From NCBI GenBank assembly GCA_024305745.1, contig JAHRBS010000009.1, forward strand, positions 1,674,001-1,738,000: 64,000 nucleotides of DNA. Reading direction: 5' to 3'. Positions within the stretch are counted from its first letter, which is position 1. Every line of letters begins with the position of its first letter. Under the pieces are notes generated by a model. It ran no database searches and was not told the DNA's origin. It saw nothing but the letters and a program-made list of their open reading frames with translations. The DNA is from Polyporus tsugae. Its lineage: Eukaryota; Basidiomycota; Agaricomycetes; Polyporales; Polyporaceae. A program made the position numbers and the translations under genes. This document shows, piece after piece, positions 1,042-28,660 of the stretch.

Positions 1042-2306
1042 ATGACCTCCCTTGAACCCCTCTGCTTCAAGTTTGCGGTAAGCGGACACGAGAAATCTTC
1101 GCCTGGGGTTTGGATGGCACATACAAGGATGAGGAAAAGAGGTGCGCGTACATATGCTATCTGTAGCATCTAAATGCGCGCTTATAGTACACCAGGATCC
1201 ACCTCCGAGTCTCCGTGCAAATGACCGATGAGTACAAGTAAGTCAGGCAACTCCCTCGCTCGCCCAACAGGCCCAGTCGGCCCCGCTCCACCTAAGGAAC
1301 AAGAAATATAAAGATCAATCAATGCGGGACCGAAGTACACTTCGTTTTTGCTCTCACTGGTATGGCAGTGCCTGACGGACGTCCTCCAGCAAGCGCAGGC
1401 ACCGGCCGCATGATCGCCCAAATAGACAAACCCCCCGCGAGAGGACAAGGTGCGTTCGTCCTGTACAATCTGCCCATCCTCTTGTATTCAGATTTGCGCG
1501 CAGATAGTCAAGTATTGGGATTCAAAGGCGAACAAGGTCATCCGACACTACCACAGACACCTGTCCGAAGTGTATGCGCTCAGTTTGCACCCAACGCTCG
1601 ACGTCCTCGTCACCTCCGGTCGTGATGCGTCGGCACGCGTGTGGGACATGCGAACAAAGGCGCAAATCCACGTCCTGTCCGGCCATACGGCTACTGTCGC
1701 GGATGTGAAGTGCCAGGAGTCAGACCCTCAGATCATCACTGGTAGTATGGACTCGACCGTACGGTACGCATACGGTCACCTCTTTTGCTTTGCTTGGGTC
1801 TAAATCAGCATACGTACAGGTTATGGGACCTCGCTGCGGGGAAGACGATGGTGACGCTGACCCACCACAAGAAGTCTGTGCGCGCGCTCGCCATCCACCC
1901 GACGGAGTACACCTTCGCGTCCGCCTCAGCGGGCGGGAACAACATCAAGAAGTGGAAGTGTCCGGAGGGCATGTTCGTCTTCAATTTCAGCGGGCAGAAC
2001 GCGATCATCAACACGCTCTCTGTGAACTCGGAGGGCGTCTTCTTCTCGGCAGGCGATAACGGGTCGCTGGCGTTCTGGGACTGGAACACAGGCACAGCAT
2101 TCCAGAACATGGACGATATACCGCAACCGGGTTCGCTGGAGGCGGAGGCGGGTGTATTCTGTTCGACGTTCGACGTCACAGGGACACGGTTGATCACGGG
2201 TGGGGCGGACAAGACCATCAAGGTGCGTGGTGATATTATCTGTGGTATTTGAATGGTACTCACGTCATCATCCCTCCAGGTGTATGCGGAGCAGGCAGGG
2301 CAGTAG
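1042..2306 (+). pseudogene. Broken copy of PRP46/PLRG1 WD40 splicing factor
   Basis: The left-arm partner of the intact gene at 32,220-33,805. Exon 1 has lost about 10 bases after ATGACC and is frameshifted. The second exon has an in-frame stop where the intact copy reads TACAAGGAGGTC (here TACAAGTAAGTC). About 320 bp, encoding the first WD40 repeats, is missing between the CAAATAGACAA segment at about 1,428 and the GAGAGGACAAGG segment at about 1,440. The 3' half, from the repeat with [13 protein letters not shown] through [12 protein letters not shown], still has good splice sites and few changes, which dates the decay as fairly recent. It could produce a truncated WD40 fragment, but no functional Prp46. 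Confidence 0.85.
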
Positions 2307-2915
2307 TGCTCAATCGTATGTATTGTATACGCTTACATTCGCTATATTACTTGCCGCTATCTGGATTGTTGTCTGTTCGAGCTCTGGATGTGCTTGTGTT
2401 TTCGCTGTGACGGCGAGTATGCCGTCCAATTTGCTGTGTGGCTAGCCATCAGAGGAGTTCGTGCCATATCGCGACTCATACGTGCTCATTGCTCGCAAGA
2501 TGCGTTGGATCTGCTGACCTATGTGTGAGTCTCTTTCCGTTCATATGTCTCGTCCACACTCTGAAAGGTTCTATAGTCATTGACAGGTACCAAGTTGGTC
2601 GGTGTTCGTGGCCGAATCCATGGAAGGTCCGGCCCTCGGTCATTCTGAGGCAACCAACCCGCGTTGCATCACCCATCACTCAAACGACCTGTCAATGCGC
2701 GCGGTTACGTTCCCCGCTTGGACCTGTTCCCCGCGAAATCCGACCAGATTCTCATTGACCTCACGGCCTTTCGCCCCATTCACGTCGAACGAGGGTGACT
2801 CCCATCCCTTCCACCGATCCTTGGGACCTTGCGTCGATGTCGCTGCTTCTACTCGTCATGTTTTCCGTCCTCCCTAGGACCGATTTACCCTCCAGTTCTC
2901 TACAAACTCTAACGT
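2307..2915. other. Intergenic, convergent 3' ends, no gene seen
   Basis: About 610 bases between the PRP46 remnant and the first UstYa-like gene, matched by 31,612-32,219 in the other arm. Both flanking genes end into it. Reading frames here are short and shift between arms, so I see only terminators and untranslated sequence. Confidence 0.5.
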
Positions 2916-3547
2916 TCAAACCGACTCCCCCGCGCGCCTCAACTGGGGAGCATACTCCCGCTGATTCTCCCAGACCCTTTCATACACCACTCGCCAGTCC
3001 TTGCATCTCCGGATCGGGTGCTGCGATAGCGACATCACCTTATGCGCGTACTGGAACGGGTCCAGCTTCAGGCCCTCGTCGCGGCACATCAGCACCTGCC
3101 GCAGGTAGTTCAGGCAGTGCCGCGTGGGCTGCTCCTCGCGCTCCGCTCTCGGGCGCGCGAGTTGGGCGCGGATGATGTCGAGGCACCGGAGCTGGTGCAT
3201 CATCCCCACGGTGTAGGTCGTGTTGTCAGGGCCGAGGTGGACGACGCCGCCGTTGGGGAAGAGGGGGGCCCATTGTTGGGCGGAATCGAGGGGGTAGTGC
3301 TTCCAGCTGTCGACGACGAGGAACACCTCGTTCCTTTCGACGTCGAAGAAGGCTGTGGGTGGGTCAGTTTCTCTGACATCGTACACCGTCAGAGATGAAG
3401 GAGCTCACGGTTCTTTTGTTCGGTTAGGGCTGTGTGGTCACGTCCACTCACGGCTGCAGTCGCCAGTTTAAGAGTGACCTTTAAGACGAGCAGCATGAGG
3501 ATAGCAGCCGTCGCTGCTGCTGCTATAGTGCGGGTGGATATGTTCAT
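2916..3547 (-). CDS. UstYa-like DUF3328 membrane protein, copy 1 (half-degenerate motifs)
   Basis: Two exons (3409-3547 and 2916-3352; 56 bp intron with a CTGAC branch site) give about 191 residues. The N-terminus has one hydrophobic anchor (about residues 9-31), then a DUF3328 domain: an FFDVERNEV strand, a first motif HQLRC and a second motif RHCLNYLRQVLMC. UstYa-family proteins use two HxxHC motifs to bind metal and oxidise peptide or secondary-metabolite substrates. Here motif 1 has Arg for the second His and motif 2 reads PTRHC, lacking the first His. Both changes are shared with the other arm, so they are old. It is divergently paired with the seven-TM gene at 4,530. I infer a partner subunit rather than an active enzyme. 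Confidence 0.8.
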
Positions 3548-4529
3548 TGGAAGAGGAGGATGCAGTGGTGCCTAGTGCCTGCTATTTACGTTAGGCTCGT
3601 ATCGCCGAGTTGTTATAGACCGCTCGTGTGTCCCTAACAGGTGATAGCGGCAAGTCAGGCAAGCCATTCAATTCAGAGCAACGTTTGTCGCGATCCCGCC
3701 TCCCCCATTTCTGGGCATCATTGGCATTTGCAGCGTTAACGTTACGTCGGGCCTGGAGCACCGGTCATATCAGCCGGACGATGCTGCCAGCAGTGGTCTA
3801 ATAGCCACAGTGGCATCGGTAGACTCCCCGGTTTGCACTCGGTGTGTTCTTTCCCGGCATTTTCGGAGCATAAAGAATGACATTCACGTTATCCCCGTGC
3901 CAGATATTTTGCCTACATAGTGTCACTGCGACGATCGGCACAACAGCTTCCCCAGCCACATAGTGCCACCCGGAGCGCCGACGCGTGTCCGGATATCCAA
4001 ATGAAAGTCTGCAGCCAATTGAAGCTGATCAATATAATTATCCCACGAGTGGATGTCCATAATTTGCTACGTCGTACTTATGGTTACCTTCCATAGGCTG
4101 CCTGGCCCTCGACGTCTATGGTCCGAAACCACGCTCTGGGTACTTCTCTGCCAGGAATAGGCTCAAGCGTGGGATATCCAGCGGCACCTGGGTCAGGCGG
4201 CCCCGGCAATGTGTAGGGTGCAGAACAGTCGTAGCACTTTTCGGATATGCAACTTGAAGGCAGTTCTTCAGCGCCGCCAGCTTGCAGAATAACTGAGCCC
4301 CTTGCGGCGTCGAGCCTTCCAGCACCCAAGATGTCTTCCACAGACGACTGTGCTCGTATCCAGATATCATTGGTGGTGAGTATGCCCTGATACCGGATGC
4401 CCTGCAGTGCCGTCCTGACTCTCCTCCTGACTGCCCTCGGTCAATAGTGATCCTAGATATAAGAACTCATCATCGTGTTTGGAAAACCCGCTCGGACCAT
4501 CGTGTGGACGTTTCAACCGCAGAGCTGTG
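3548..4529. promoter_or_regulatory. Shared divergent promoter region of UstYa-1 and seven-TM-1
   Basis: Nearly 1 kb between two divergently transcribed genes, matched by 29,975-30,979 in the right arm. It has several GGATATCC/GATATCC-like palindromic words but no consistent reading frame conserved between the arms. No specific operator can be named. Confidence 0.4.
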
Positions 4530-5873
4530 ATGTCGGACTCCTGGAACGCTATCTTCCAGAATTGCTGGTATGTCGGCAACAATTTCAACTGCATACTGTA
4601 TGGTACGTGTTCCGCTTTTCGTAACATTTTCGCTGTCATTTTGACGAATGATTAACTACCACAATACGTTGCGCAGGAGTCGAGCTGGTCCTGTATATCA
4701 CCACCGTGAACCTCGTGCTACACGGCCGGAGGCGGAGGTGGCGCTCTCAGGCTGGCGACGGGGCGATCCCCTGGCTGATCCTGTTCCTCAGCACCGGTCT
4801 CCTGTGCATGATCACCGTCTACCTCTTCGCGCAGAACTTCTTCGGACAGGAGATGTGGATCATTCACGCGGGGTACGCCGGGGGCTCGGGCCAGTACTAC
4901 GCGGACCACGCGGCGGTGTGGTACCAGACGATGGGGAGTGCGGCCTCGGTGGTGATGAACTGGTTGAGCGATGCGTACCTGGTATGTATGAGTTTAAGCT
5001 CGGAGCTTACCCGGGTTTTAATGTCGTGGAGAACTGACGGGGGGTGGGTGATGATGACAGATACATCGCGTGTACGTCGTTTGGGGCGGGAGGACCTCCG
5101 TGATCATCGTCCCGTCAATATTATACCTCGGCACAGTCGGTATGTCATACAGCACACGGCGCATGTGCACGCCGCCCCCTTGATTGGAGGAACTTATGCA
5201 TACTTCTCCTCCAGTGCTCGGTATCCTGACGTGCTACTACTCGGGCCGACCAGGCGGGGACTTCTTCGTCGGGGTCGCCCCTCGGATCGCCCTGGCATAT
5301 TCCGCGGTCGGCATCGCCATGAACTTCATATGTACATCGCTGATTTGCGGCATCATCCTCTACGCCACGCGGGGGTTTTCCGTGCTCCTCTCCGGCGATG
5401 TCACCGACGACGACGACAGTAGCAGGAGCGGAAACAGTAGCGTCTTCAGAAGAGCGGTGCTGATGATCGTGGAGTCGATGCTGCCGTACACGCTGTTCGG
5501 CGTGGCATACGTGACGACGTTGGGACTAAACAGTCCAACCTCCATCCTGTTCCTCTCGTTGTACGTTATGTTCACGGTGGGTCTCGTGATATCTTTTTCT
5601 TTCGTGTTGTGGCACTCATACGTGGCTCAGTGCCTCTCTCCGCAGTTGATTATCCTGTGCGTGCTCATGGATCGTGCATGGAAGAACGAGCGTACACTTA
5701 CCCCCGGACAAAACTCCTCATTGAAGTTCGCCCCCGGTGGCCCGAAATCGCAATTGGGCACCGTTAGTTATAAGGAGACTTTGGCACTCCCAGATCTGCC
5801 GATTCCTGGGAACGCTTCTCGGTCTGAGTTGTCGGACACTCATACAAGCACTCGGCTTGAGGACTACGCGTAG
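4530..5873 (+). CDS. Seven-transmembrane protein of an Agaricomycete family, copy 1
   Basis: Five exons, starting at the ATG of MSDSWNAIFQNCWYVG and ending at TAG 5871-5873, with introns after ILY-G, AYL, GTV and YVMFT, all short GT-AG. The product, about 300 residues, has seven hydrophobic segments; landmarks are AQNFFGQEMW, GGSGQYYADHAAVWYQT, CYYSGRPGGDFFVG, ESMLPYTLFGVAYVTTLG and SILFLSLYVMF, then a polar tail. It resembles the fungal seven-TM proteins of unknown function that are expanded in mushrooms. Receptor, transporter and structural roles are all possible and the sequence does not decide. The same family occurs again at 11,641-12,894. Position next to UstYa-like genes hints at a common pathway (inference). 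Confidence 0.75.
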
Positions 5874-6144
5874 TGGAGTGACATCTTCTGAAGACTGGTG
5901 TATAATTAGCGGTCGTCCGATATCGCATTCCTAGATACCCCTCCGACGTGTAGCCTTGTGCTTTCGAGATCCCCACCTCCATTTATGATCCGGCTTCCCC
6001 TCGTCTCCATTTTTCTCAGTACTGTAAATCGAAAGTTGTGTACAATAGTCCTCCAACTCCGTGCCTCACGATTCTAAATCTCCGATCGGAATTCGATGCC
6101 TTGCAATACCCGGCCTGATAGCAACTCGAGAGGCCGTTAGCGGT

Positions 6145-7243
6145 TCAAACGGTCTGATACTGTATGACGTTGATGCCTGGAAAACAGAGTCCCTGATAAG
6201 CACGCCGTTGCGCGCTCGCAAAGCATATCCCTGAGCCGGCACTCACCGAACGTCGTGTTCTGACTTGACCACGCGTCCACGAAACACTCGCGGGACCCTT
6301 CCGCGCACGCGACCTCGAACGTGTGCAACGACGCCCGCGGGCACTTGAACCGGTACACCGCGGTGTCACCTCCTCCTGAACCTGGCACCGCTAGCGCATG
6401 GACGTCCACGGTGACGATCTTCTCCGCTCCCTTCGGGCGCGTGCGGTACGTGAGCGCCCCCGGGTCGATCGGGTTGTTGGTCGTGAGGCGGAAAATGTCG
6501 AGATGCGAGTGCGGGTGCATGGTGAACGACGCCCCCGCTTCCAGTACCGTCCCGAGCTCCGGGATGGTGAGGACGAGATGGCAGTCCTCCATACCGAAAT
6601 CGATAGTGCGGAACTGTGCGATGGTGTGAACCTGCGTTGTGTTGTTACGGCGTGAGCGGCGTGGACGTGCGCTGGAACTAGAGCCGGGAAGAACACGAGA
6701 ACAGGCGTACCTCGGGGGTGACGTGAAGGCGCCGCTCGTTGGGCGACAGCGTGCCCCAGCCGTCGATCCAATGATCACGTTCACCGCGCGGGGCGGGCCT
6801 GTCTGGCTCGTTGACGAACACTTGGGCGGAGAGGCGAGGACGGTTGATGATCGGCTCGATGTTTGACGCAACTGCTTGTCCAGATTTGTAGAGCTCCTTC
6901 AAGCCGATGTACGGGTTCGCGAACTCGAGGTCGGCGGGGAGGCCTCTGTCTTCAAAGACGGTGTTGAACATGTAGCCGACGTAGGCCATGGCGACGAGGT
7001 CGATGAGCACGAGTCCAGCGACAATGAGAAGTACCCATCGTAAGAGCGGCGAATTTGAATGGTCGTTGCTGCGTTTACGAACATGACCTGTAGCCGTATT
7101 GCGTAGTCAGTTCAGACTACGGTTTACGGCACTCTCGCAGGAGACTTACCTCGTGTCAGAGGACTAGACTCGCTTGAATCATCGTGCTCTGGCAACTCAA
7201 GGAGTTCATGTTGCTCGGGTGAGTCACACGATGAGAAGCGCAT
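6145..7243 (-). CDS. Type II membrane protein with But2-C-like domain
   Basis: Four exons give about 290 residues, with the start at 7243. A Ser/Glu-rich cytosolic N-terminus (DDSSESSPL) is followed by one membrane anchor near residues 45-68, then a luminal or extracellular region with IDGWGTLSPNERRLHVT, QFRTIDFGMEDCHL, a DxFRLTTNNPxDPG strand and CP-C-C cysteines, ending in INVIQYQTV. This pattern matches a basidiomycete family commonly annotated with a But2 C-terminal domain; function unknown. The last exon is only 32 bases. It lies between the seven-TM gene and the peptide precursor, from which it is divergently transcribed. I infer participation in the same pathway from position only. Confidence 0.7.
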
Positions 7244-7673
7244 CTTCCTTGGTACTGCTGGGTAATAGGTTGAGCCTGAGGGTGGTGTCGGGATGAGAGT
7301 GCTTGCGTTCACGTCCCCCTTCTCCCTTTTTTTGTTCTGCGAGGAGAACATACGGACATACGACCATCACCGCTGATATGGCGATGTATCTTACCTGGAG
7401 ACCCTGTGCTTGAATAACCCTGCGCGTCTCCAGGTGCCTGAGCATGTGGATTTGTGAGTCCCTGTGTGTGCTGTGGAGGAATGGTGATGTGCTCACCAGC
7501 GCACCAAGCTCCGAGTGTCGGATGTCGGATCCCCTTTCGCCGATAACCTCACCGTTATGAAACACTGATCCAGGGCGGTGGTCAATGGGCGGCAATGACA
7601 AGGTGACTGGCGACGTAGAAAAGAAAATAGAAAAAAATGAGGGCATACCTAGGTCTGCACACTGGACGAAATG

Positions 7674-7680
7674 TATAAAA
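7674..7680 (+). promoter_or_regulatory. TATA box of the repeat-peptide gene
   Basis: TATAAAA lies 79 bases before the start codon, followed by GAGGGGGTCTCTTTGACTC. The TATA word and the downstream TCTCTTT word are both kept in the right arm (26,841-26,847), although the surrounding sequence has diverged. A strong TATA box suits a highly expressed, regulated secreted peptide. Confidence 0.6.
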
Positions 7681-7758
7681 GAGGGGGTCTCTTTGACTCA
7701 AATTCAGCATCGCAACCACCACTCAGTCTGTACTCACTCCACTCCTCCTTTACCCACC

Positions 7759-8047
7759 ATGCAGTTCTTCGTCTCTCCCGTCCGTGTCGTTTCTGCCATC
7801 TTCGCTCTCCTCTTCGCCGCATCCACGGTGTCTGCCTTGCCACAACCCACTGGAGTGGTGGCTGGGGATGGTAAGCAGTTCTGATAACACGAATAGTGCA
7901 TTTTCTAATGTGTCTTCCACATGAACAGCCGCCGCTACGTTGAATCACCAGGAGAACTCGATGCTGAAGCGCGACCGTCAGGAGAACACCATGTTGAAGC
8001 GTCAAGAGAACACTATGCTGAAGCGTCAGGAGAACACTATGCTGTGA
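7759..8047 (+). CDS. Secreted Kex2-repeat peptide precursor (RiPP-like), left copy
   Basis: Two exons (7759-7870, 7929-8047; 58 bp intron) encode 76 residues. A clear signal peptide ends about VSA-LPQP (residues 1-26). A short leader (to about residue 43) precedes four hexapeptides: QENSML, QENTML, QENTML, QENTML. They are separated by KR (the first by KRDR), the recognition site of the Golgi protease Kex2, and the last hexapeptide ends the protein. Signal peptide plus Kex2-separated near-identical cores is the layout of dikaritin RiPP precursors, which are modified by UstYa-family enzymes; two such genes flank this one. The core lacks aromatic residues, unlike ustiloxin-type cores, so the chemistry would differ. 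It could instead be an unmodified signalling peptide. It is not a mating pheromone of the usual basidiomycete type: no C-terminal CaaX box. Confidence 0.85.
7949..8044 (+). repeat. Four core repeats of the peptide precursor
   Basis: 24-base coding units at 7949, 7979, 8003 and 8027. Each codes QEN(S/T)ML followed by Lys-Arg, except the last, which is followed by TGA. An extra Asp-Arg pair separates units 1 and 2. Synonymous differences between units (CAG/CAA, ACC/ACT, CTG/TTG) show that the peptide, not just the DNA, is being kept. Confidence 0.9.
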
Positions 8048-9240
8048 ATACCAACCAATCTGCCTGCCAGCGGGAGAGGTCAGTGGCCAGCACGTCGACA
8101 GAGTTGAATGCCACTGACATACTGCCTCTTCATCTCAGTCAGGTCCCTGCCCAGCGCTCTTGGATTCCAGGCTATACGGAAGAGCTTGATCACTATTTAA
8201 TCGTTTGTATCCGTCAGAATGTAAATCGAAACGACTTGGAATGCAGTGTTGGCGCACCAACCTTTCTTACGCGTGAATCGATGGTTACCGGATGAGCCCA
8301 TGGAAAACACACGCTCTGACGGCCCATCCTGGCCTATGTTAAGCATGCGCGCCAGGTAAAAGATTGAACTTGAGGGGTCTATGTGACTGGGCCCGGCGAC
8401 ATTCTTGCTGGCAGATGCGGTCGGATCACTAAGTCTAAGTCGCTGCGAAGATACAGCGGACGAAAGCGAATGGTGACCAAAGCAACATGTCAGAAATTTT
8501 TTGTGTGGATACCGCGTTAGTCGAAGCGGTATCGCTATACGCACCTCGGGCCCGACGTGGCCATCGCCGTGAGGGGTACGGGACTCGATTCCAGTGAAGG
8601 ATTTGCAGTGCGAGTCGCCATTCTGGGTGGTCCCGGGTTCTCCCGAGGGTTTGACGCCCATGGCCAGTGTTGAACGTTTGAACTCGACTTTCAAGTTCAA
8701 TCAAGTTTGCATCACTCCATGCGTACGTCTGTCCTCTACCCTCCGCTCACTGCCGCCAGCGTTGACGGCTTTATAACATACGAAGTTCCACACGATACAT
8801 CGCTCGGAGTGTGTCCGAGACCATGCCGCAACCCCTATGTCCGACTCCGGACTCGGAACGAGTATCGCCCCGATATCCTGAGGATTTGTCTCATACTCTT
8901 ATCACACGAATTCCAGACATATCTCCACGCACGGTTGTATCCAAGGTGCGCTCGTGAAGAGCGTCTCTCCGACGCGACTCGGGATAGGGACAGTGCTCAT
9001 CAAATTGGTAGCCACTCCTGCCGGATCCGGACAGCGTGCACACAATCACCTACACACCTTGCGTCCAAAACAAGCAAAAAAAAGCCGCTGCATGGGACGT
9101 TTTCTGATAATTTATCATTGAGAGGCTCTCCTTAGGTTCAGGGTTGTATGTCGGTTGGAGATGCAGGAGGCGCGGTCTGCGTAGGTATAATGCCCACTTC
9201 ACAATTGTGCCCTCGCGACACTCATCGCCAAAGCTCCGAC
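8048..9240. other. Intergenic between peptide gene and UstYa-2
   Basis: About 1.2 kb, nearly identical to 25,276-26,468 in the other arm. Open frames on both strands are identical between arms, but only because the DNA is; none has a recognisable domain or splice pattern. It should hold the peptide gene terminator and the UstYa-2 promoter. Confidence 0.5.
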
Positions 9241-11449
9241 ATGGTGTCCCGTCCAGCCGCTCTCATTCTCCTCACATGCATTGGATCCATCTATCTCTTT
9301 CTTACTCTTTCAATCCTGGACGACGTCCACGCCATACTGAAGCGCAGGCCGACACCACCTTCTCAATACAGTGAGTCCCAGTCATTCGCACTACGCGCCT
9401 CAGTGCCCGGGATAAGTGAGAATTTTAGTCGTATTTTTCGCGCTTTGCTACCTTAAGTGGGGGTAAGGTCGGACCCCACTTTAAAGTCGGGTTTTGTCCT
9501 GCCAGCCGAAAGCCCATGTTTAGCCAGTAAAAATACGACCCGATGTAGCGCGCATACAGCTCGCGACATTGAGTGAGCGCTTAGCTCGACGTTCGTCGGA
9601 CGAGACAAATAGAGACAAATTGAGCAGTTGGCTCTGAGTCCGCATTTGGTCCGCATCGATTATCGCCTCTTTTTCAGCGTTCAACTCGTTTGACTCTTGC
9701 TGCTCTCTGGTTCCCTGGGTCTCCGCCTGCCAGCCTGTTCCTCTTGTGCTGGCCAATTGGCTGTCCTATCTCCATCTGGGTGCTTAACTAGAGGGGTCAT
9801 TCTAACGTCTCGCTGGCATGCGTGGTGCATCTTGGCTGTAGATCTGGTGGACGCTCTCGCGCCTTGAATGCACGGTTGGATGCGAGGGGTATATTGTACG
9901 TTCTCCCCCCGCTTCTATACCTTATACTGTGTGATGCCTTGACGAGATAGTGGTCCTCGGCCATCTTCTAGTACAGTCTCACCCTCGGCCATCATCTCAA
10001 GCTTCCGGCACAAGGACAGTTCCCATATTGCGCCATCTGTGGCAATCGAGGTAAGTTGTTTGTTCTAACTTCTACCCACAAACTTGAGGCTCACTCAATG
10101 CGAGTGTGCGCAGATTGGCATGATACCCTCCCCATCTTGGTGGTTGTCACGGCCGCTTGCTATTGGTAGGATAATGGTACGTTTTTCGCTGCATTTCACC
10201 CGTCTATTAACTACCCCCACCTGTTGTATCCCCACTTGCCTGTGCCAGCACCTTTACCCCCGCACACGCATTATTGTGGATGGACGTGCCCTCTGCAGCT
10301 TCAAGCTTCAAGTCAGGGTTTCACGCGCACCAGCCGGTGCGAGCGGAGTGATGGTCGGTACTCTAGGCGCCTTGTCTATGGCGATGACAACAATCAACTC
10401 GCACCTGTGTGTGATGCCCCAGTGGCTCCATCCGAAAGCAGGCCACTGGTGACTAGGAGCTCGCCCGGAGTCCAGCTCCGCACGGCAACTTGGGTGGTGC
10501 ATGAGCGCGTGCCGACCGCGGTGCACCTGCACCAATGCCGGTATAGACGCGTATGGGGACAGTAGGAGAGGTCTACATCATGAGCGCGCTATTTCTATAC
10601 TAGAGATAATCTCCTTCAATCAATTTATTATTTTGCTTTCTATTATGGCGACAGGATCAGAAACTGACAGCAATGCGAATGGGTGGTGGACCCCTGCCAG
10701 CAGCGAGCCCGCTGCAATCCGAAATGGGAAGGTCGTAAAAGGGAAAGTTTGTCATGAAAAAATCCGGCTTTCCTGTCCTAGCTAATGTCGCGAAAAACCC
10801 CGGGCGCCAGACGTAACTTATTCGCATTTCTCCCGGGTTTCCACTGTAAAAACTGCGACCTTACGGGTCGTCATTACGTCGCGTTTTGTCCGACCTCCTG
10901 GGCACACAGTGTTCTGTCCGAATTTCCAGCGCAGCTGACATACCGCTTCAACCAATAGCGTGGATCGAGGACGACGTGCCCGACCACCTCACCCTCCTAG
11001 GCCCGAGCAAGCACGTCCTCATGCCTATGGAGGAGTCCGTCCGCTTCGGCATCCACGAGCCCGAAGCCTACGACGAATGGCTGAGCATCATCTCGCCCGA
11101 GGATCAGGGCAACGTCCGGCTCGGACCCAACCACCGCTTCATGAACGTCGCGCTGATCCACCAGCAACACTGTCTTCGCTTCTTCCGCACCCACCTCGAC
11201 GCCGACGATGACGGTGTTCCTCTCTCAGACTCGGACGTACACCATGCGGAGCATTGCCTCAGCCTGTGGCGCGAGCACACGCTCTGTGCAGCCGACGTCA
11301 CGCTGGAGGTCGGGGACCCTTTTGCTCATAACTTCGCGGTCCAGCGGGACATGGGAGTTCGGCAGTGCATGGACGTGGAAGCATTTTACGGGACTATGTG
11401 GAAGCATTGGGGGGATTGGTTACTATATCAAGACAGCAGGGCCGTGTAA
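9241..11449 (+). CDS. UstYa-like DUF3328 oxidase, copy 2, with transposon-bearing intron
   Basis: Exons 9241-9370 and 10959-11449 encode 206 residues. An N-terminal anchor (about residues 5-25, LILLTCIGSIYLFLTLSIL) precedes the DUF3328 domain. Both family motifs are complete: HQQHC in IHQQHCLRFFRTHL and HAEHC in HHAEHCLSLWREHTLCAADVTLE, expected to form the metal site. UstYa-family enzymes act in the secretory pathway on Kex2-released core peptides. The intron is 1,588 bp against 61 bp in the right-arm copy, because a 1.5 kb element has inserted into it; donor GTGAGT and acceptor CAATAG are intact, so the protein is unchanged if splicing still works. Whether it does is unknown. Confidence 0.82.
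9388..10911. mobile_element. Non-autonomous CACTA-like DNA transposon
   Basis: Compared with the right arm, exactly 1,527 extra bases occur here: 1,524 of element plus a 3 bp TTC target duplication (9385-9387 and 10912-10914). One end begins GCACTACGCGCC and the other, read inward, CACTGTGTGCCC, an imperfect inverted repeat in which differences are transitions. CACT(A/G) ends and a 3 bp duplication fit the CACTA/EnSpm type; a KDZ-related element is an alternative. There is no transposase frame, so it depends on a helper elsewhere. It lies wholly inside the UstYa-2 intron. It is absent from the right arm, so it moved in after the duplication. Confidence 0.75.
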
Positions 11450-11640
11450 CGTGTGTCTGGAAATATTTATGTCTACCCGATGGTCAGACAGGCCTGCATA
11501 GGTGTGTAGCATAGAGTACAGTCGTAGCAGCGAGTGCATGTCAACATCGTGAAGTCATTCCTAGTCGTCCTGACACGCGTCCCCTTACATTGTGGGCCAC
11601 ACTGAAGCATGGAAGCTCGGCATCAAATTCGTGACCACAG

Positions 11641-12894
11641 TCAGACCGCATAAGCGACCTCCAATGGCACGTCCTTCGTCATCGTGACCTCCGCACTCGT
11701 GCCGGACAGCGTGTATGGAGCCTTCGCCTCGGTACGCGAGTGTTCCAAACTCCGCGTCCACATTGTGGTCGTCTCCTCCGTCCACCCGCGTTCCATGAGC
11801 ATCCGCAGCATGATCATCTGCGGCGAGAGGCACTAGTCACGCAACAAGCATCCGTCAGTTGTGGTCCGGAAGACAACTCCAAGTCATGGGTGGCACGCAC
11901 GGTGAACATCACGTAGAGCGAGAGGAACAAGATGGACACCGGGCTGTTCACACCGAGCGTCGCCACGTACGTCACTCCAAAAAGCGTGTACGGAAGCATG
12001 GACTCGACCGCCATGCTCACCGCTCCCGTGTACGCCCTCGCTGCAGAGCTGCCGACGCCGGCAGCTTCCATTTTGCGTCGGGTCCACAGGATGCGGGTGC
12101 AGATGAGCGTGGTGCAAAGGACGTTCGTGGTGATCACCACCGTGGAGTAGGCGAGCGCGACATGCGGGGCCGTGCCAACGAAGAAGTCGGCGTTGGGCCT
12201 GCCGGAGAAGTAGCATGTCATGGTTCCCAGCGCTGTCCAAGTCAGTCCACACAACTCCATGTCAGCGTTTGTACTGTCCCGTCCGAGCATCCTCGGAGAA
12301 ATACACATACCCGCTGCACCGAGGTACAGAATGGAAGGGAAGACAACCACGCGCCAGTCTGTCCAAACCACATACGTCCGGTAAATCTGTTCGGAAAGCG
12401 ATGGAGGGGGTTAACCGCCCGGTCAGAGCGCTGCGGTAGGATAGGGCCGATATCTCACCAAGAATGCGTCGCTCATGAGGCAGAGCACGACCGATGCGGC
12501 ACTCCCCAATGTTTGGTACCACACTGCGGCATGGTCGGCGTAGTACTGCCCCGAACCTCCTGGGTACCCCTCGTTGACGACCCACATCTCCTGGCCGAAG
12601 AAATTCTGCGCAATGAGATAGATGGTGATCATGACCATGAGGCCGGTGTTGAGCAGGAGCAGCCACTTGTCGCTCTGTTTCCGGTGGTTCGCCCGGCGGC
12701 TCTTCAGGATCAGCCTCGCGCTCATGAGGTACAACGTCAGCGCGACGCCTGCAAAACAATTCGACTGCGCGTCAGCCTGAGCTTTGCCGCATGCATGGAT
12801 GTGCCAGAGGAACTGAGTACGCACCGTAGAGGATAGCGTTGAAGTTGTTGCCGATGTACCAACAGTTTTGAAAGATTGTATTCCAGTCCGCCAT
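11641..12894 (-). CDS. Seven-transmembrane protein, copy 2 (left)
   Basis: Starts at MADWNTIFQNCWYIG (12,894) and ends at a TGA at 11,641-11,643. Five exons with the same intron positions as the seven-TM gene at 4,530, so the two are paralogs by an older duplication. Landmarks are AQNFFGQEMW, GGSGQYYADHAAVWYQT, CYFSGRPNADFFVG, ESMLPYTLFGV and SILFLSLYVMF, with a short Glu/Thr-rich tail. It is convergent with UstYa-2. It differs from the right-arm copy mainly within intron 3 (about 12,243-12,318), while its first exons are nearly identical to it. Function unknown. Confidence 0.75.
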
Positions 12895-14124
12895 GTGTGT
12901 AGTTCGACAGCCAGCTCAGGGTGAGGGGTGCATGTGGTGGGCGGAGCCGATTTTAAGCCCCTTACTGGCTCTGAAATTGCTAAGCGGCCACGATATCTAT
13001 ACGTCATGTCTGAAATGAGTGGGAAGGGTGGGACAAACTATTCCACTGTCAGGGTGGTTTGTCGAGCGATGGGTAGGGTGGCACTCACCTCCCTGCTTAG
13101 TCTGAACAGTTCCCTGCATGACGGAACACTGACTGGCTGGTGTCTATCACCCGACACGCTGAGTCGTTTTGCCTGGCGCACCGGGGTTTGGAAAACATGG
13201 TCCGAGCACTCATGACAGGTCAGGGGAGCAGGACAGGACACCCCGTTCACCCTGGCGGGGTTGTGTGGGAACTATCCGAACCGCTGCGCCATGAGGAATG
13301 CGGTTTTCATGGGAAAAGATGTGTTTTGATAGACACAGATGAAGGTCCAGAGGGACGGGTGGATGACTCAATGTTGAGATGGATCTGCAATTGGGAGTAC
13401 TCGTGATATGTCGGGCGACAGGAAAATAATAGAATTGACCGTGCATACCTTTGAGGTACCAAACCGCCTTTACACCGTGTAAGCGAGGCGCGGGTGTCAG
13501 ATAGGCTGTTGAGGCCCGGAAGTGCATTTCACCGTCAGTTCGGTATGCTACTGTTGCTGGCGCCGCCGATACTGGCCGCTGTGTTTTTTGCCGGGATGGT
13601 TCATAAGTTTCACCACCATGCATTCCTTTCGGTATATACGGGATGATTAGTTAAACATCGACCAGTGTCAAAGTCAAACCATGCAAAGAAAAAAGGTTGC
13701 ATCAAGTGGAAGGACCAAGTAGCGGTAGCGGACAAGTCCGACGAGTCAGGCTGAACTTTTCAATCGCAATGGGCGCCTTTTCAAATCCGCTGCGGTCTTC
13801 GGGCGCTAAATCGAAGTTGCATGTACACTTGTCTTCTCCCCCCATCTCGGTCACACAGACTCTTTCAGTCCATGGGTGGATCATCCTGGAACGACATGCC
13901 AACCCATAAACTGACATCTGAGCCAACGGAATGACTCGAGCTCCGTGTCAATTGCGCGGTCCGAAGGCTGCCAGTGCGTCTTCCTTGAGTCTCGACCCTC
14001 CAGGTCCGAGCTGGGATTGGATTGAAGCTCGGAATTCATAATATCCAGTACTGTGTACATATCGAGGTTCCTTCGAGCTATCTACCCCCCCACTAACACT
14101 GCTGTCTAACACAAAGCCTTACTT
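12895..14124. other. Intergenic between seven-TM-2 and GNAT genes
   Basis: About 1.2 kb, essentially identical to 21,922-23,151. The two genes are divergently transcribed, so this holds both promoters. Reading frames of 70-137 codons on both strands are the same in both arms but have no signal peptide, domain or splice support. No gene called. Confidence 0.5.
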
Positions 14125-15188
14125 ATGGCCCCTCCCGACGTGACTATCGAATTCGTTGCGAGTCCGACAGGTACAATACAAATTTCCTTTCCCTCCCCTT
14201 GCCTTCTTCTAACTCGCGGAACACAGAACGTCTCGCAGAGGAGGCCATTGAGGTTTTCTCTGGCTTGATGGGTGCAGGTGTGCGCTGCCATGCGTGCCAA
14301 CTTGAACGTCGAGAGCAAGTGTGACTAACTATGTGGCAGACCCATGCTCGATCGCCCTCACTGGCGGAGACATCTCCCTCCTGCCCGACTTTGGCGGCGT
14401 CATGGTCCGCTCTCTCATATTATGCCCTGGGGTGTCTCATGTGTACACCGCGAGAGACGATGCTGGTGCACTCGTGGGCTTCACGATCTTCGCCCCTCCC
14501 GGCCAGTTGATGTGCTCCACGTACGTCCCATCCTCACGTCTGTCATGGAACAACGAGACTGATGATAATCTTGTAGGGACGAACAGAGAGAGAAGGGCAT
14601 GATGATGGAATATATGAACAAACTGTCGCCTGAAGGGCGAGCGTACTACGCGGAAACGGTGAGTCCGACCGCTTGAGCGTCGCAAGCTATTCGTGCGTGA
14701 AGGTACCCTTAACATACGTGCGTCGCAGATGGGGAAGGAAGCGCCTAAGGCGAATGACGAAACGTTCGGGATCGAGGCTGCCGAACGCAACACGTACTGG
14801 TGCAACCTCGCGATGGTGCGGGCGGACCATCAGGGCAAGGGCATCGCGAAGGCGATGTTTGAACTAGCGTACAAAGAGGTCGCATTATTTTCCTTTCGTT
14901 TCGATGTTGCCTCGCTCATACATACAACTCGATCTCAGGCAGCGAAGACTGGAGCGACAGTGGCCCTGACGACAACCAATATCCATAACGTAAGATTTAT
15001 CTGTTCGATACCCAGAGGCTACGGTCGACTGGTCGTGGTGCCCGAACGGTGATGGCTTGGGATAGGTCTCCATCTACGAGAAGATAGGGCTCAAGCTCTA
15101 CGGTGAAAGGAAGTTCCCGTCCCCGTGGGTGGAGTGGACCCTCTGGTTCTTCGCGAGAGAGATCAGAGAGGACGGCCTCGCGGCTTAG
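14125..15188 (+). CDS. GNAT-family N-acetyltransferase (left)
   Basis: Seven short exons, from MAPPDVTIEFVASPT to TAG 15186-15188, encode roughly 230 residues. The acetyl-CoA binding motif A is clear: NLAMVRADHQGKGIAKAMFELAYKE contains the (R/Q)xxGx(G/A) loop as HQGKGIA. The final exon has the typical VSIYEKIGLKLYGE segment and ends in a WVEWTLWFFAREI strand. The likely role is acetyl transfer to an amine; the substrate cannot be read from sequence. Clustering with the peptide and UstYa genes allows peptide N-acetylation or self-resistance as ideas (inference). The right-arm copy differs most in the last two exons. Confidence 0.82.
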
Positions 15189-20869: not shown

Positions 20870-21921
20870 CTAAGCCGCCAATTCGTCCTTTCCTGCTTCT
20901 CTCGCAAAGAACCAGAGTGTCCACTCTACCCACGGGGACTGGAACTTCCTTTCACCGTACAGCTTCAGCCCTATCTTCTCGTAGATGGGGACCTGCTCCA
21001 AGCATCACCGTTCAGCACCACAATATGACACTGGCTATCGATCGAATAAAGCTCACGTTACGGATATTAGTCGTCGTCAGGGCCACGGTCGTTCCAATCT
21101 TCGCTGCCTGAGATCGAGTTGTATGTATGAGCGAGGCAACATCGAAACGAAAGGAAAATAATGCGACCTCTTTGTACGCTAGTTCAAACATCGCCTTCGC
21201 GATGCCCTTGCCCTGATGGTCCGCCCGCACCATCGCGAGATTGCACCAGTATGTGTTGCGTTCGGCAGCCTCGATCCCGAACGCTTCGTCGTTTGCCTTG
21301 GGCACTTCCTTCCCCATCTGCGACGCACGTATGTTAGGGGTAGCTCCCCGCACGAATAGCTTGCGACGCTCAAGCGGTCGGACCCACCGTTTCCGCGTAG
21401 TACGCTCGCCCTTCAGGCGACAGTTTGTTCATATATTCCATCATCATGCCCTTCTCTCTCTGTTCGTCCCTACAAGATTATCATCAGTCTCGTTGTTCCA
21501 TGACAGACGTGAGGATGGGACGTACGTGGAGCACATCAACTGGCCGGGAGGGGCGAAGATCGTGAAGCCCACGAGTGCACCAGCATCGTCTCTCGCGGTG
21601 TACACATGAGACACCCCAGGGCATAATATGAGAGAGCGGACCATGACGCCGCCAAAGTCGGGCAGGAGGGAGATGTCTCCGCCAGTGAGGGCGATCGAGC
21701 ATGGGTCTGCCACATAGTTAGTCACACTTGCTCTCGACGTTCAAGTTGGCACGCATGGCAGCGCACACCTGCACCCATCAAGCCAGAGAAAACCTCAATG
21801 GCCTCCTCTGCGAGACGTTCTGTGTTCCGCGAGTTAGAAGAAGGCAAGGGGAGGGAAAGGAAATTTGTATTGTACCTGTCGGACTCGCAACGAATTCGAT
21901 AGTCACGTCGGGAGGGGCCAT
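20870..21921 (-). CDS. GNAT-family N-acetyltransferase (right)
   Basis: Inverted copy of the gene at 14,125-15,188, with start 21,921 and stop 20,870-20,872. All seven exons and splice sites are kept, as is the acetyl-CoA loop HQGKGIA. Exons 1-5 are nearly identical to the left copy. The last two exons differ at many positions, for example KIGTTVALTTTNIRN against KTGATVALTTTNIHN and a changed C-terminal tail ending in GGCGGCTTAG. Both copies look functional. Confidence 0.82.
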
Positions 21922-23151
21922 AAGTAAGGCTTTGTGTTAGACAGCAGTGTTAGTGGGGGGGTAGATAGCTCGAAGGAACCTCGATATGTACACAGTACTG
22001 GATATTATGAATTCCGAGCTTCAATCCAATCCCAGCTCGGACCTGGAGGGTCGAGACTCAAGGAAGACGCACTGGCAGCCTTCGGACCGCGCAATTGACA
22101 CGGAGCTCGAGTCATTCCGTTGGCTCAGATGTCAGTTTATGGGTTGGCATGTCGTTCCAGGATGATCCACCCATGGACTGAAAGAGTCTGTGTGACCGAG
22201 ATGGGGGGAGAAGACAAGTGTACATGCAACTTCGATTTAGCGCCCGAAGACCGCAGCGGATTTGAAAAGGCGCCCATTGCGATTGAAAAGTTCAGCCTGA
22301 CTCGTCGGACTTGTCCGCTACCGCTACTTGGTCCTTCCACTTGATGCAACCTTTTTTCTTTGCATGGTTTGACTTTGACACTGGTCGATGTTTAACTAAT
22401 CATCCCGTATATACCGAAAGGAATGCATGGTGGTGAAACTTATGAACCATCCCGGCAAAAAACACAGCGGCCAGTATCGGCGGCGCCAGCAACAGTAGCA
22501 TACCGAACTGACGGTGAAATGCACTTCCGGGCCTCAACAGCCTATCTGACACCCGCGCCTCGCTTACACGGTGTAAAGGCGGTTTGGTACCTCAAAGGTA
22601 TGCACGGTCAATTCTATTATTTTCCTGTCGCCCGACATATCACGAGTACTCCCAATTGCAGATCCATCTCAACATTGAGTCATCCACCCGTCCCTCTGGA
22701 CCTTCATCTGTGTCTATCAAAACACATCTTTTCCCATGAAAACCGCATTCCTCATGGCGCAGCGGTTCGGATAGTTCCCACACAACCCCGCCAGGGTGAA
22801 CGGGGTGTCCTGTCCTGCTCCCCTGACCTGTCATGAGTGCTCGGACCATGTTTTCCAAACCCCGGTGCGCCAGGCAAAACGACTCAGCGTGTCGGGTGAT
22901 AGACACCAGCCAGTCAGTGTTCCGTCATGCAGGGAACTGTTCAGACTAAGCAGGGAGGTGAGTGCCACCCTACCCATCGCTCGACAAACCACCCTGACAG
23001 TGGAATAGTTTGTCCCACCCTTCCCACTCATTTCAGACATGACGTATAGATATCGTGGCCGCTTAGCAATTTCAGAGCCAGTAAGGGGCTTAAAATCGGC
23101 TCCGCCCACCACATGCACCCCTCACCCTGAGCTGGCTGTCGAACTACACAC
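21922..23151. other. Intergenic between GNAT and seven-TM-2 (right)
   Basis: Near-perfect mirror of 12,895-14,124. It holds the two divergent promoters; no gene is seen. Confidence 0.5.
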
Positions 23152-24402
23152 ATGGCGGACTGGAATACAATCTTTCAAAACTGTTGGTACATCGGCAACA
23201 ACTTCAACGCTATCCTCTACGGTGCGTACTCAGTTCCTCTGGCACATCCATGCATGCGGCAAAGCTCAGGCTGACGCGCAGTCGAATTGTTTTGCAGGCG
23301 TCGCGCTGACGTTGTACCTCATGAGCGCGAGGCTGATCCTGAAGAGCCGCCGGGCGAACCACCGGAAACAGAGCGACAAGTGGCTGCTCCTGCTCAACAC
23401 CGGCCTCATGGTCATGATCACCATCTATCTCATTGCGCAGAATTTCTTCGGCCAGGAGATGTGGGTCGTCAACGAGGGGTACCCAGGAGGTTCGGGGCAG
23501 TACTACGCCGACCATGCCGCAGTGTGGTACCAAACATTGGGGAGTGCCGCATCGGTCGTGCTCTGCCTCATGAGCGACGCATTCTTGGTGAGATATCGGC
23601 CCTATCCTACCGCAGCGCCCTGACCAGGCGGTTAACCCCCTCCATCGCTTTCCGAACAGATTTACCGGACGTATGTGGTTTGGACAGACTGGCGCGTGGT
23701 TGTCTTCCCTTCCATTCTCTATCTTGGGGCAGCGAGTACGTCTATGTCTCCGTGGACGCTCGGACGCCACCGTCACACAACCGCTGACATGGAATGGTGT
23801 GGACCGACAGCGCTGGGACTCATGACGTGCTACTTTTCCGGCAGGCCCAACGCCGACTTCTTCGTCGGCACCGCGCCGCACGTCGCGCTCGCCTACTCGA
23901 CCGTGGTGATCGCCATGAACGTCCTCTGCACCACGCTCATCTGCGCCCGCATCCTGTGGACCCGACGCAGAATGGAATCCGCCGGGGTCGGCAGTGCTGC
24001 GGCGAGGGCGTACACGGGCGCGGTCAGTATCGCCGTAGAGTCCATGCTTCCATACACGCTTTTTGGAGTGGCGTACGTGGCGACGCTCGGTGTGAACAGC
24101 CCGGTGTCCATCTTGTTCCTCTCGCTCTACGTGATGTTCACCGTGCGTGCCACCCATGACTTGGAGTTGTCTTCCGGACCACAACTGACGGATGCTTGTT
24201 GCGTGACTAGTGCCTCTCGCCGCAGATGATCATGCTGCGGATGCTCATGGAACGCGGGTGGACGGAGGAGACGACCACAATGTGGACGCGGAGTTTGGAA
24301 CACTCGCGTACCGAGGCGAAGGCTCCATACACGCTGTCCGGCACGAGTGCGGAGGTCACGATGACGAAGGACGTGCCATTGGAGGTCGCTTATGCGGTCT
24401 GA
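23152..24402 (+). CDS. Seven-transmembrane protein, copy 2 (right)
   Basis: Exons 23152-23221 and 23298-23587, then three more, to a TGA at 24,400-24,402. The product has the same seven hydrophobic segments and landmarks as its left-arm partner, with several substitutions in the C-terminal half (for example CARILWTRRRMESAGVGSAA against CTRILWTRRKMEAAGVGSSA). The N-terminal 190 codons are almost identical in DNA. It is intact. Function unknown, as for the family. Confidence 0.75.
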
Positions 24403-24593
24403 CTGTGGTCACGAATTTGATGCCGAGCTTCCATGCTTCAGTGTGGCCCACAATGTAAGGGGACGCGTGTCAGGACGACTAGGAATGACTTCACGATGTT
24501 GACATGCACTCGCTGCTACGACTGTACTCTATGCTACACACCTATGCAGGCCTGTCTGACCATCGGGTAGACATAAATATTTCCAGACACACG

Positions 24594-25275
24594 TTACACG
24601 GCCCTGCTGTCTTGATATAATAACCAATCCCCCCAATGCTTCCACATAGTCCCGTAAAACGCCTCCACGTCCATGCACTGCCGAACTCCCATGTCCCGCT
24701 GGACCGCGAAGTTATGAGCAAAAGGGTCCCCGACCTCCAGGGTGACGTCGGCTGCACAGAGCGTGTGCTCGCGCCACAGGCTGAGGCAATGCTCCGCATG
24801 GTGTACGTCCGAGTCTGAGAGAGGAACACCGTCATCGTCGGCGTCGAGGTGGGTGCGGAAGAAGCGGAGACAGTGTTGCTGGTGGATCAGCGCGACGTTC
24901 ATGAAGCGGTGGTTGGGTCCGAGCCGGACGTTGCCCTGATCCTCGGGCGAGATGATGCTCAGCCATTCGTCGTAGGCTTCGGGCTCGTGGATGCCGAAGC
25001 GGACGGACTCCTCCATAGGCATGAGGACGTGCTTGCTCGGGCCTAGGAGGGTGAGGTGGTCGGGCACGTCGTCCTCGATCCACGCTATTGGTTGAAGCGG
25101 TATGTCAGCTGCGCTGGAAATTCGGACAGAATGACTGGGACTCACTGTATTGAGAAGGTGGTGTCGGCCTGCGCTTCAGTATGGAGTGGACGTCGTCCAG
25201 GATTGAAAGAGTAAGAAAGAGATAGATGGATCCAATGCATGTGAGGAGAATGAGAGCGGCTGGACGGGACACCAT
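24594..25275 (-). CDS. UstYa-like DUF3328 oxidase, copy 2 (right, compact intron)
   Basis: Exons 25146-25275 and 24594-25084, with a 61 bp intron, encode 206 residues nearly identical to the left copy. Both HxxHC motifs (HQQHC, HAEHC) and the N-terminal anchor are kept. This uninterrupted copy gives the ancestral intron and the empty target site of the transposon. It lies between seven-TM-2 and the peptide gene. It is the best candidate for the working modifying enzyme in this locus. Confidence 0.85.
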
Positions 25276-26468
25276 GTCGGAGCTTTGGCGATGAGTGTCG
25301 CGAGGGCACAATCGTGAAGTGGGCATTATACCTACGCAGACCGCGCCTCCTGCATCTCCAACCGACGTACAACCATGAACCTAAGGAGAGCCTCTCAATG
25401 ATAAATTATCAGAAAACGTCCCATGCAGCGGCTTTTTTTTGCTTGTTTTGGACGCAAGGTGTGTAGGTGATTGTGTGCACGCTGTCCGGATCCGGCAGGA
25501 GTGGCTACCAATTTGATGAGCACTGTCCCTATCCCGAGTCGCGTCGGAGAGACGCTCTTCACGAGCGCACCTTGGATACAACCGTGCGTGGAGATATGTC
25601 TGGAATTCGTGTGATAAGAGTATGAGACAGATCCTCAGGATATCGGGGCGATACTCGTTCCGAGTCCGGAGTCGGACATAGGCGTTGCGGCATGGTCTCG
25701 GACACACTCCGAGCGATGTATCGTGTGGAACTTCGTATGTTATAAAGCCGTCAACGCTGGCGGCAGTGAGCGGAGGGTAGAGGACAGACGTACGCATGGA
25801 GTGATGCAAACTTGATTGAACTTGAAAGTCGAGTTCAAACGTTCAACACTGGCCATGGGCGTCAAACCCTCGGGAGAACCCGGGACCACCCAGAATGGCG
25901 ACTCGCACTGCAAATCCTTCACTGGAATCGAGTCCCGTACCCCTCACGGCGATGGCCACGTCGGGCCCGAGGTGCGTATAGCGGTACCGCTTCGACTAAC
26001 GCGGTATCCACACAAAAAATTTCTGACATGTTGCTTTGGTCGCCATTCGCTTTCGTCCGCTGTATCTTCGCAGCGACTTAGACTTAGTGATCCGACCGCA
26101 TCTGCCAGCAAGAATGTCGCCGGGCCCAGTCACATAGACCCCTCAAGTTCAATCTTTTACCTGGCGCGCATGCTTAACATAGGCCAGGATGGGCCGTCAG
26201 AGCGTGTGTTTTCCATGGGCTCATCCGGTAACCATCGATTCACGCGTAAGAAAGGTTGGTGCGCCAACACTGCATTCCAAGTCGTTTCGATTTACATTCT
26301 GACGGATACAAACGATTAAATAGTGATCAAGCTCTTCCGTATAGCCTGGAACCCAAGAGCGCTGGGCAGGGACCTGACTGAGATGAAGAGGCAGTATGTC
26401 AGTGGCATTCAACTCTGTCGACGTGCTGGCCACTGACCTCTCCCGCTGGCAGGCAGATTGGTTGGTAT

Positions 26469-26762
26469 TCACAGCATAGTGTTCTCCTGACGCTTCAGCA
26501 TAGTGTTCTCTTGACGCTTCAACATGGTGTTCTCCTGACGGTCGCGCTTCAGCATCGAGTTCTCCTGGTGATTCAACGTAGCGGCGGCTGTTCATGTGGA
26601 AGGTACATTAGAAATCCACTAGTCATGTCATCAGAACTGCTTACTATCCCTAGCAACTACCCCACTGGCAGTAGGTTGCGGCAAGGCAGACACCGTGGAC
26701 GCGGCGAAGAGGAGAGCGAAGATGGCAGAAACGACACGGACGGGAGAGACGAAGAACTGCAT
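26469..26762 (-). CDS. Secreted Kex2-repeat peptide precursor, right copy
   Basis: Exons 26645-26762 and 26469-26587 encode 78 residues. The signal peptide is the same as in the left copy. The leader differs: PQPTASGVVARDTAATLNH against PQPTGVVAGDAAATLNH, a two-codon length difference plus substitutions. Exon 2, with four QEN(S/T)ML cores and KR sites, is identical base for base as far as I can see. Intron and upstream sequence have changed more. Retention of cores while the leader drifts is what selection on the released peptide, or gene conversion, would give. Confidence 0.85.
26472..26567 (-). repeat. Four core repeats, right copy
   Basis: Same four 24-base units as at 7,949-8,044, in inverted orientation, with the same synonymous differences between units. 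Confidence 0.9.
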
Positions 26763-26840
26763 GGTGGGTAAAGGAGGAGTGGAGTGAGTTCAGACTGAGT
26801 GGTAGTTGTGATGATGAATTGGAGTTAAAGAGACTCCCTC

Positions 26841-26847
26841 TTTTATA
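26841..26847 (-). promoter_or_regulatory. TATA box of right peptide gene
   Basis: TATAAAA on the minus strand, 79 bases before the start codon, followed by a GAGGGAGTCTCTTT stretch as in the left copy. Confidence 0.6.
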
Positions 26848-27281
26848 TGTTTCGTCCAGTGTGCAGACCTAGGTGAGCACTCATTTTTCTATTTTCTTTT
26901 CCACATTGCCAGTCACCTTGTTATTCCCGCTCAATGCCTCATTGGTCACCGCCCTGTATCAGTGTTTCATAACGGTGAGGTTATCGGCGAAAGGGGATCC
27001 GACATCCGACACTCGGAGCTTGGTGCGCTGGTGAGCACATCACCATTCCTCCACAGCACACACAGGGACTCACAAGTCCACACGCTCAGGCACCTGCAGG
27101 CGCGCAGGGTTATTCAAACACAGGGCCTCCGGGTCGGACACATCGCCATATCAGCGGTGATCGTCGCATGTTCGTATGTTCTCAGGCTCGCGCAGAACAA
27201 AAGCGGGGAGGGGGGCGTGAGCGCAACTGGGTCCGCACTCTCGTCCCAACACCAACCTCAACCTAGCACTCACCAAAGACG

Positions 27282-28375: not shown

Positions 28376-28660
28376 ACTGCTAACGTCGTCCTTGAGAGGT
28401 TATCATATAGCAGACCAGGAAATATTGCAACGGATGATGATCGAACTCGTCGGAGACTCAGAACTAAGGGGCACAGAGCTTGAGTACTCCTTATTGTACA
28501 CAATGACTCCCTAGAAGAGAGAAAGCCAGATTATATATGGAGACGGGAGCATTCGGGGGTACTAGGCTACATGTTGGGGGATATATCAAGGAGCGCGATA
28601 GGCGACCGCTAATCGTACAGAAGGACACGGAAGAGAAATGTAACTAGAACTCCACACACA

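Follow-up and report, generated by a model that had tools for sequence, protein, structure and literature searches.

Kex2-repeat peptide precursor genes beside UstYa-family and seven-transmembrane genes in Polyporus tsugae

A repeat precursor in two inverted copies

The 64,000-nucleotide stretch of Polyporus tsugae DNA analysed here (the window; bases 1,674,001–1,738,000 of contig C11 in a genome of 43.2 Mb and 18 contigs) carries two copies of a Kex2-repeat peptide precursor (KEP) gene, which lie inverted with respect to each other, one per arm of a large inverted duplication (arm 1, 1491–15015; arm 2, 21031–33035). Copy 1, a gene with known homologues, occupies 7759–8047 on the forward strand, with exon 1 at 7759–7870, a phase-1 intron of 58 bp at 7871–7928 and exon 2 at 7929–8047; copy 2 occupies 26469–26762 on the reverse strand (exon 1, 26762–26645; intron of 57 bp; exon 2, 26587–26469). 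The translation of copy 1 is MQFFVSPVRVVSAIFALLFAASTVSALPQPTGVVAGD up to the intron and AAATLNHQENSMLKRDRQENTMLKRQENTMLKRQENTML from there to the stop codon, exon 2 being organized as AAATLNH-QENSML-KR-DR-QENTML-KR-QENTML-KR-QENTML-stop. In copy 2, exon 2 is base-identical to that of copy 1 except for the intron-split codon, and exon 1 differs by a 6-bp indel and by silent changes in the signal peptide. The predicted signal peptide has a hydrophobic N-terminus, ends in VSA-LP and is kept in four homologues. A TATA-like element lies at −85 upstream of both copies.

A sequence-only reading had proposed a Kex2-repeat precursor beside UstYa-family genes in a basidiomycete, with a reading frame confirmed by a 58-bp intron, and both proposals are confirmed by the gene model, the homologues and the PF11807 matches of the neighbouring genes. 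Its description of four hexapeptides separated by Lys-Arg needs qualification: the four QENSML or QENTML units are present, but only two of them are cleanly bounded QENTML (KR to KR and KR to stop), the first unit following LNH and the second reading DRQENTML. The four repeats are of six residues each, or eight if KR or HG/YG/DR is counted, where a published survey defines KEPs by at least three repeats of at least eight residues between dibasic sites (PMC7329392). As had also been proposed, the core contains no Tyr, Trp or Phe, and Tyr-ether chemistry thus cannot apply to QEN[S/T]ML. N-glycosylation of the core was considered and dropped, as N-T-M is not a sequon.

A six-frame scan for at least three similar KR-separated units over 285,504 bases (the whole window together with UstYa neighbourhoods from this genome, with some 500-bp overlaps counted twice) returned these two genes and no others; at a threshold of at least two units, three unrelated low-complexity frames were added. 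The same type of scan near the UstYa clusters on contigs C8 and C15 returned no KEP, and in tblastn searches with exon 1 or exon 2 across the UstYa neighbourhoods, the two known copies were the only convincing hits among the matches listed.

Conservation of the precursor in Ganoderma

Of 19 candidates in the precursor search, five matched at E ≤ 10: four full-length proteins (E values of 1.9e-35 to 7.8e-18) and one that matches exon 1 alone. The full-length homologues are GSI_03275 of G. sinense, V8D89_014886 of G. adspersum, LXA43DRAFT_1100977 of G. leucocontextum and P0004; all named relatives belong to Ganoderma (three species), and the gene plan is kept in all four. Counting copy 1 together with these relatives gives 27 units in five loci, of which 26 end in EN[T/S]ML (22 in ENTML and 4 in ENSML) and one ends in ESTMQ. 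The preceding residue is Q in 16 units, E in 6, N in 2, A in 2 and D in 1; an identical pyroglutamyl mass is expected for QENTML and EENTML. Eight-residue units also occur (HGE-, HGA-, HGQ-, YGE- and DRQ-ENTML), and a putative removal of the first dipeptide would turn these into hexapeptides. Tyr is absent from all 27 core hexapeptides, the two YG units holding it outside the hexapeptide. By the sequence evidence, the precursor is both real and conserved.

UstYa-family neighbours

UstYaB copy 1 (9241–11449, forward strand; exons 9241–9370 and 10959–11449, intron of 1,588 bp) begins 1.2 kb downstream of KEP copy 1, and UstYaA copy 1 (2916–3547, reverse strand) lies 4.2 kb upstream. In the other arm, UstYaB copy 2 (24594–25275, reverse strand) has an intron of 61 bp and UstYaA copy 2 lies at 30980–31611 on the forward strand. 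Both proteins match PF11807 above the cut-off of 25 bits (UstYaB, 44.5 bits; UstYaA, 43 bits). Two HxxHC motifs are a feature of the UstYa family. UstYaB has both (HQQHC and HAEHC in copy 2), and the residues concerned (H111, H114 and C115; H138, H141 and C142) are invariant in 23 of 23 aligned homologues, out of 34 matches. By contrast, UstYaA has HQLRC where the first HxxHC would be expected and RHC in place of the second, despite its PF11807 score. A sequence search for a solved structure related to UstYa returned none, and the predicted UstYaB fold is a poor model (pLDDT 63). The long intron of UstYaB copy 1 harbours a 1.5-kb insertion (9388–10911) with a 3-bp target duplication, which is absent from copy 2.

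GPCR-like and But2-like genes

Each arm also contains two genes for seven-transmembrane (7TM) proteins. In arm 1, 7TM-a (4530–5873, forward strand) has five exons encoding a membrane protein of 353 residues that resembles a G-protein-coupled receptor (GPCR), and 7TM-b (11814–12894, reverse strand, start at 12894) lies on the other side of the KEP gene; the second copies are at 28661–29974 (7TM-a, reverse strand) and 23152–24229 (7TM-b, forward strand), the 3′ ends of both 7TM-b genes being approximate. Between 7TM-a and KEP lies a gene for a But2-like single-pass membrane protein (copy 1, 6145–7243, reverse strand and transcribed away from KEP; copy 2, 27282–28375, forward strand), the protein of which scores 19.3 bits against PF09792, below the cut-off of 24.2. 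Apart from one weak match on C15, all But2-like matches in the genome are on C11.

Mean Lys plus Arg values over 44 7TM sequences are 3.9, 1.9, 3.4 and 3.3 for one membrane face versus 0.2, 0.1, 0.7 and 0.05 for the other, an asymmetry that by the positive-inside rule places the N-terminus outside and the C-terminus inside; with seven helices, 7TM-a and 7TM-b thus have the topology of GPCRs. The fold was predicted for P0040, a homologue of 7TM-a, and GPCRs filled 50 of 50 Foldseek rows and 50 of 50 VIA rows among the matches listed. Neither Pfam, searched with 7TM-a, nor the PDB sequences, searched with the 7TM profile, gave a match, and PF02949 matched weakly in 14 of the 44 homologues. These proteins are GPCR-like by predicted fold and topology rather than by membership of a sequence family.

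The possibility that the 7TM genes are STE3 receptors of a B mating locus was ruled out: all 27 PF02076 matches are on contig C3 and none is on C11. The 27 STE3 exon matches form a cluster at C3:1,680,443–1,732,148, which is likely to be the B mating locus. No convincing precursor was found alongside the 7TM genes that stand alone (C11:1766 kb; C16:1720 kb).

Linkage across species

In G. adspersum, the locus tags run 7TM (V8D89_014884), KEP (014886), UstYaB (014887, directly following KEP) and 7TM (014888), and in G. sinense 7TM (GSI_03273), KEP (03275) and 7TM (03277), so that the tag spacing of the 7TM genes around KEP is identical in the two species. For G. sinense, no UstYaB orthologue was found among the matches listed, the paralogue GSI_03250 being the only one. 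Elsewhere, equal listed contig size in bases was used as a proxy for location on the same contig. By this measure, KEP, UstYaB and 7TM are together in G. leucocontextum (contigs all listed at 93,336 bases), the precursor P0004 is together with the UstYaB protein P0020 (4,060 bases), and UstYaB shares a contig with a 7TM match in 9 of the 16 assemblies with named UstYaB matches.

A KEP gene adjoined by a gene for a UstYa protein that has both motifs of the catalytic type is the layout of dikaritin clusters (PMC7329392), and tandem amplification of precursors and enzymes would fit a defence cluster. The product might then be a dikaritin-like defensive or toxic ribosomally synthesized and post-translationally modified peptide (RiPP) aimed at other organisms, with the 7TM proteins serving as self-sensors under common regulation or as tolerance factors, or being neighbours by chance. 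We consider this rather unlikely, given that the 7TM genes stand on both sides of KEP at fixed spacing in other Ganoderma, that none of the cores contains Tyr and that C11 lacks a tyrosinase gene, the seven tyrosinase matches in the genome all being on C9 and C2. The locus shares with the dikaritins ustiloxin, phomopsin and asperipin its precursor plan and the PF11807 gene beside the precursor, but differs in the Tyr-free core, the missing tyrosinase, the receptor-like genes in the cluster and the basidiomycete host.

Unrepeated paralogous precursors

Four further precursors lie on C11 at 1663796, 1664772, 1791618 and 1838713, each with a UstYa match within ~1.3 kb. The first two belong to a neighbouring cassette (C11:1,663–1,673 kb) that comprises UstYaA, two 7TM genes, a UstYaB paralogue and a But2-like gene; each consists of a signal-peptide exon, a phase-1 intron of 56–65 bp and a tiny exon that ends in MHAETDWL-stop or VHWETDWL-stop. 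The other two, near UstYa matches at ~1,790 and 1,839 kb, have MPSTRYLLLATLL before the intron and GVTEA[D/E]WL after it. A second pair beside the same UstYa matches has MR[VI].LPL.FFIFQA before the intron and the core-like GASWL or GLGWL after it; these are two secreted two-exon genes with similar signal peptides, at L031:3160 (reverse strand) and L032:7177 (forward strand). The paralogous cores have Trp at the position of Met in KEP, and a TATA-like element lies 73–92 bases upstream in five of eight precursor genes. The unrepeated paralogues have no KR before the core, so that another protease would be needed to release its N-terminus.

As part of the best explanation, to which we give even odds when taken as a whole, KEP would belong to a small family of Ganoderma precursors, in which it is the member with several cores. 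The family is defined by a signal-peptide exon, a phase-1 intron and a short E-x-x-[M/W]-L exon, and its genes recur beside UstYa genes on one contig. Alternatively, the unrepeated precursors could be unrelated small secreted proteins that share the core by chance, leaving KEP alone in the system. All that is fixed between KEP and the others is E, L and the intron phase, and models of a signal peptide, an intron and a short exon are 2–5 times more frequent in real DNA (69) than in shuffles (13–36), a difference that calls for caution. However, the strict core E-x-[DTSEN]-[WM]-L, a motif chosen post hoc, is found in six distinct genes in 300,004 bases versus a total of two over 20 dinucleotide shuffles. 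The pattern GARACNGAYTGGYTNTRR has three matches in 43.2 Mb, two being the cassette precursors, 0.9 kb apart, and the third, on C2, ending in TGG instead of a stop codon; the reversed control gave none, whereas a looser pattern gave three matches, including both cassette precursors, with three in its reversed control as well. The GVTEA[D/E]WL pair is 79% identical in exon 2, which matches nowhere else in the genome. On this evidence we judge a chance resemblance unlikely.

A looser core motif also picks up the second pair, a model of low quality and L019:9085. The last of these (reverse strand, near a UstYa match on C8) is a single-core look-alike under the loose motif, with MRFFVAVILIAFVVGILAYPTPEPSTTGG before the intron and GGKGLLWLGCAHQEVRGGA after it.

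The product could also be an unmodified linear secreted peptide hormone of the KEP pheromone type, the UstYa proteins acting on something else. Its core lacks the residue known from Tyr-ether chemistry, and some basidiomycete KEPs resemble alpha-pheromone precursors (PMC6339444). This is nevertheless improbable: UstYa genes lie beside every paralogous precursor, and UstYaB is linked to KEP in both P. tsugae arms, in G. adspersum by adjacent tags, in G. leucocontextum and on the contig shared by P0004 and P0020.

Divergence between the arms

The synonymous divergence (dS) between arms is 0.78 for 7TM-a, 0.22 for But2, 0.10 for UstYaA and 0.037 for UstYaB, with ratios of nonsynonymous to synonymous divergence (dN/dS) of 0.18, 0.28, 0.30 and 0.06, respectively. 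These values indicate purifying selection between the 7TM-a copies, maintenance of the cassette genes, and uneven homogenization of the arms that is strongest around KEP and UstYaB. Over 2.9–31.7 kb of the window, the very uneven divergence (dS of 0.037 to 0.78) is a sign of local gene conversion. The near identity around KEP and UstYaB would also be expected if two alleles had been wrongly joined in assembly to give the inverted arms. Such an artefact is very unlikely, as the 7TM-a copies, both open, are at a dS far beyond allelic divergence, and it would touch only the copy number and not KEP itself; the idea of an artefactual palindrome was dropped on the divergence between arms.

A candidate peptide signal and its relation to known systems

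The sequences show the gene plan and that Ganoderma species keep it, a UstYa-family neighbour that has both HxxHC motifs, the 7TM genes as conserved neighbours with their GPCR-like predicted fold and topology, and the paralogous precursors. The sequence-only reading had overlooked the 7TM genes on either side, the But2-like gene transcribed away from KEP and the paralogues without repeats, and these tilt the balance toward a signal. Our preferred reading, with a probability of roughly 50%, is that the locus encodes a peptide signal, probably UstYa-modified, beside candidate receptors; its expression, its modification and the pairing of ligand and receptor are what we infer. The precursor would enter the endoplasmic reticulum, be cut by Kex2 at KR and be trimmed of C-terminal Lys-Arg, presumably by Kex1, yielding a short secreted peptide x-E-N-[T/S]-M-L. 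By analogy with dikaritins, the neighbouring UstYa membrane proteins would probably oxidize the peptide in the Golgi lumen, and the secreted product would probably be sensed by the GPCR-like 7TM receptor encoded alongside, in a pheromone- or hormone-like role. This route does not explain how HG, YG, DR or LNH would be trimmed from the N-terminal side of the hexapeptide.

The sequence-only reading had suggested a RiPP or a Kex2 signalling peptide of a new class. The KEP–UstYa pair is real, but that framing was too narrow, as KEP–DUF3328 pairs in basidiomycetes are already in print: the survey counts DUF3328 neighbours for 103 of 1,680 basidiomycete KEPs, has Tyr in 65.6% of the repeats when KEPs are linked to DUF3328 and none in about a third, and lists almost no pheromone KEPs with DUF3328 (PMC7329392). 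Like these, the present locus has a signal peptide, tandem cores between KR and an adjacent UstYa gene; unlike them, it has six-residue cores, 7TM flanks and unrepeated relatives. In Pleurotus, 16 UstYa-like genes are described, six of them developmentally expressed (PMC8893723). The kind of system is thus partly known, and what is new is the linkage of the cassette to receptor-like genes and the family of single-core precursors. No description of a receptor-linked KEP/UstYa cassette was found in searches, mainly of the main texts of open-access papers, that combined Ganoderma and UstYa, Kex2 or the locus tags, or UstYa and pheromone receptors.

With the ascomycete alpha-factor/Ste2 system, the locus shares a secreted, Kex2-cut repeated peptide and a candidate 7TM receptor, and the dipeptides that precede some cores are reminiscent of Ste13 substrates; it differs in the UstYa partner, in peptide and receptor sequences, and in the clustering of peptide and receptor genes. 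With the basidiomycete B mating locus of STE3 and lipopeptide pheromones, it shares several peptide and 7TM receptor genes on one contig; by contrast, its peptides have no CaaX end and take the signal-peptide route, and its receptors are not STE3.

The position of KEP between genes for a probable modifying enzyme and for receptor-like proteins, a layout also found in related fungi, thus points to a possible undescribed signalling system of mushrooms. We tentatively suggest, as a possibility that goes further, a second peptide pheromone or hormone system in Agaricomycetes, independent of the STE3/lipopeptide B locus, in which fast-radiating precursors give E-x-x-[M/W]-L peptides with UstYa modifications, clustered GPCR-like 7TM proteins act as receptors for each of them, and gene conversion keeps peptide and enzyme uniform whereas receptors diverge (dS 0.04 versus 0.78). 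An origin of dikaritins and KEP–UstYa peptides from pheromone clusters has been raised in a review (PMC9233826), and alpha-pheromone-like KEPs of basidiomycetes have been discussed with speculation on their receptors (PMC6339444). A peptide, a modifying enzyme and a candidate GPCR in one conserved cluster would allow both questions to be put to the test directly in a genus of cultivable medicinal mushrooms, and the cluster predicts single-core precursors that are invisible to repeat-based surveys.

Other genes in and between the arms

A WD40-repeat gene, putatively for a PRL1/Prp46-like splicing factor, lies at 1360–2305 and at 33500–32220; ~340 bp are missing from it in arm 1, whereas the arm 2 copy seems complete. 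An M48 peptidase gene (PF01435; 16.9–19.5 kb), presumably Ste24-like, is located in the spacer that separates the two arms. A GNAT-like acetyltransferase gene, with a weak match to PF13508, is present in both arms (14306–15052 and 21031–21740).
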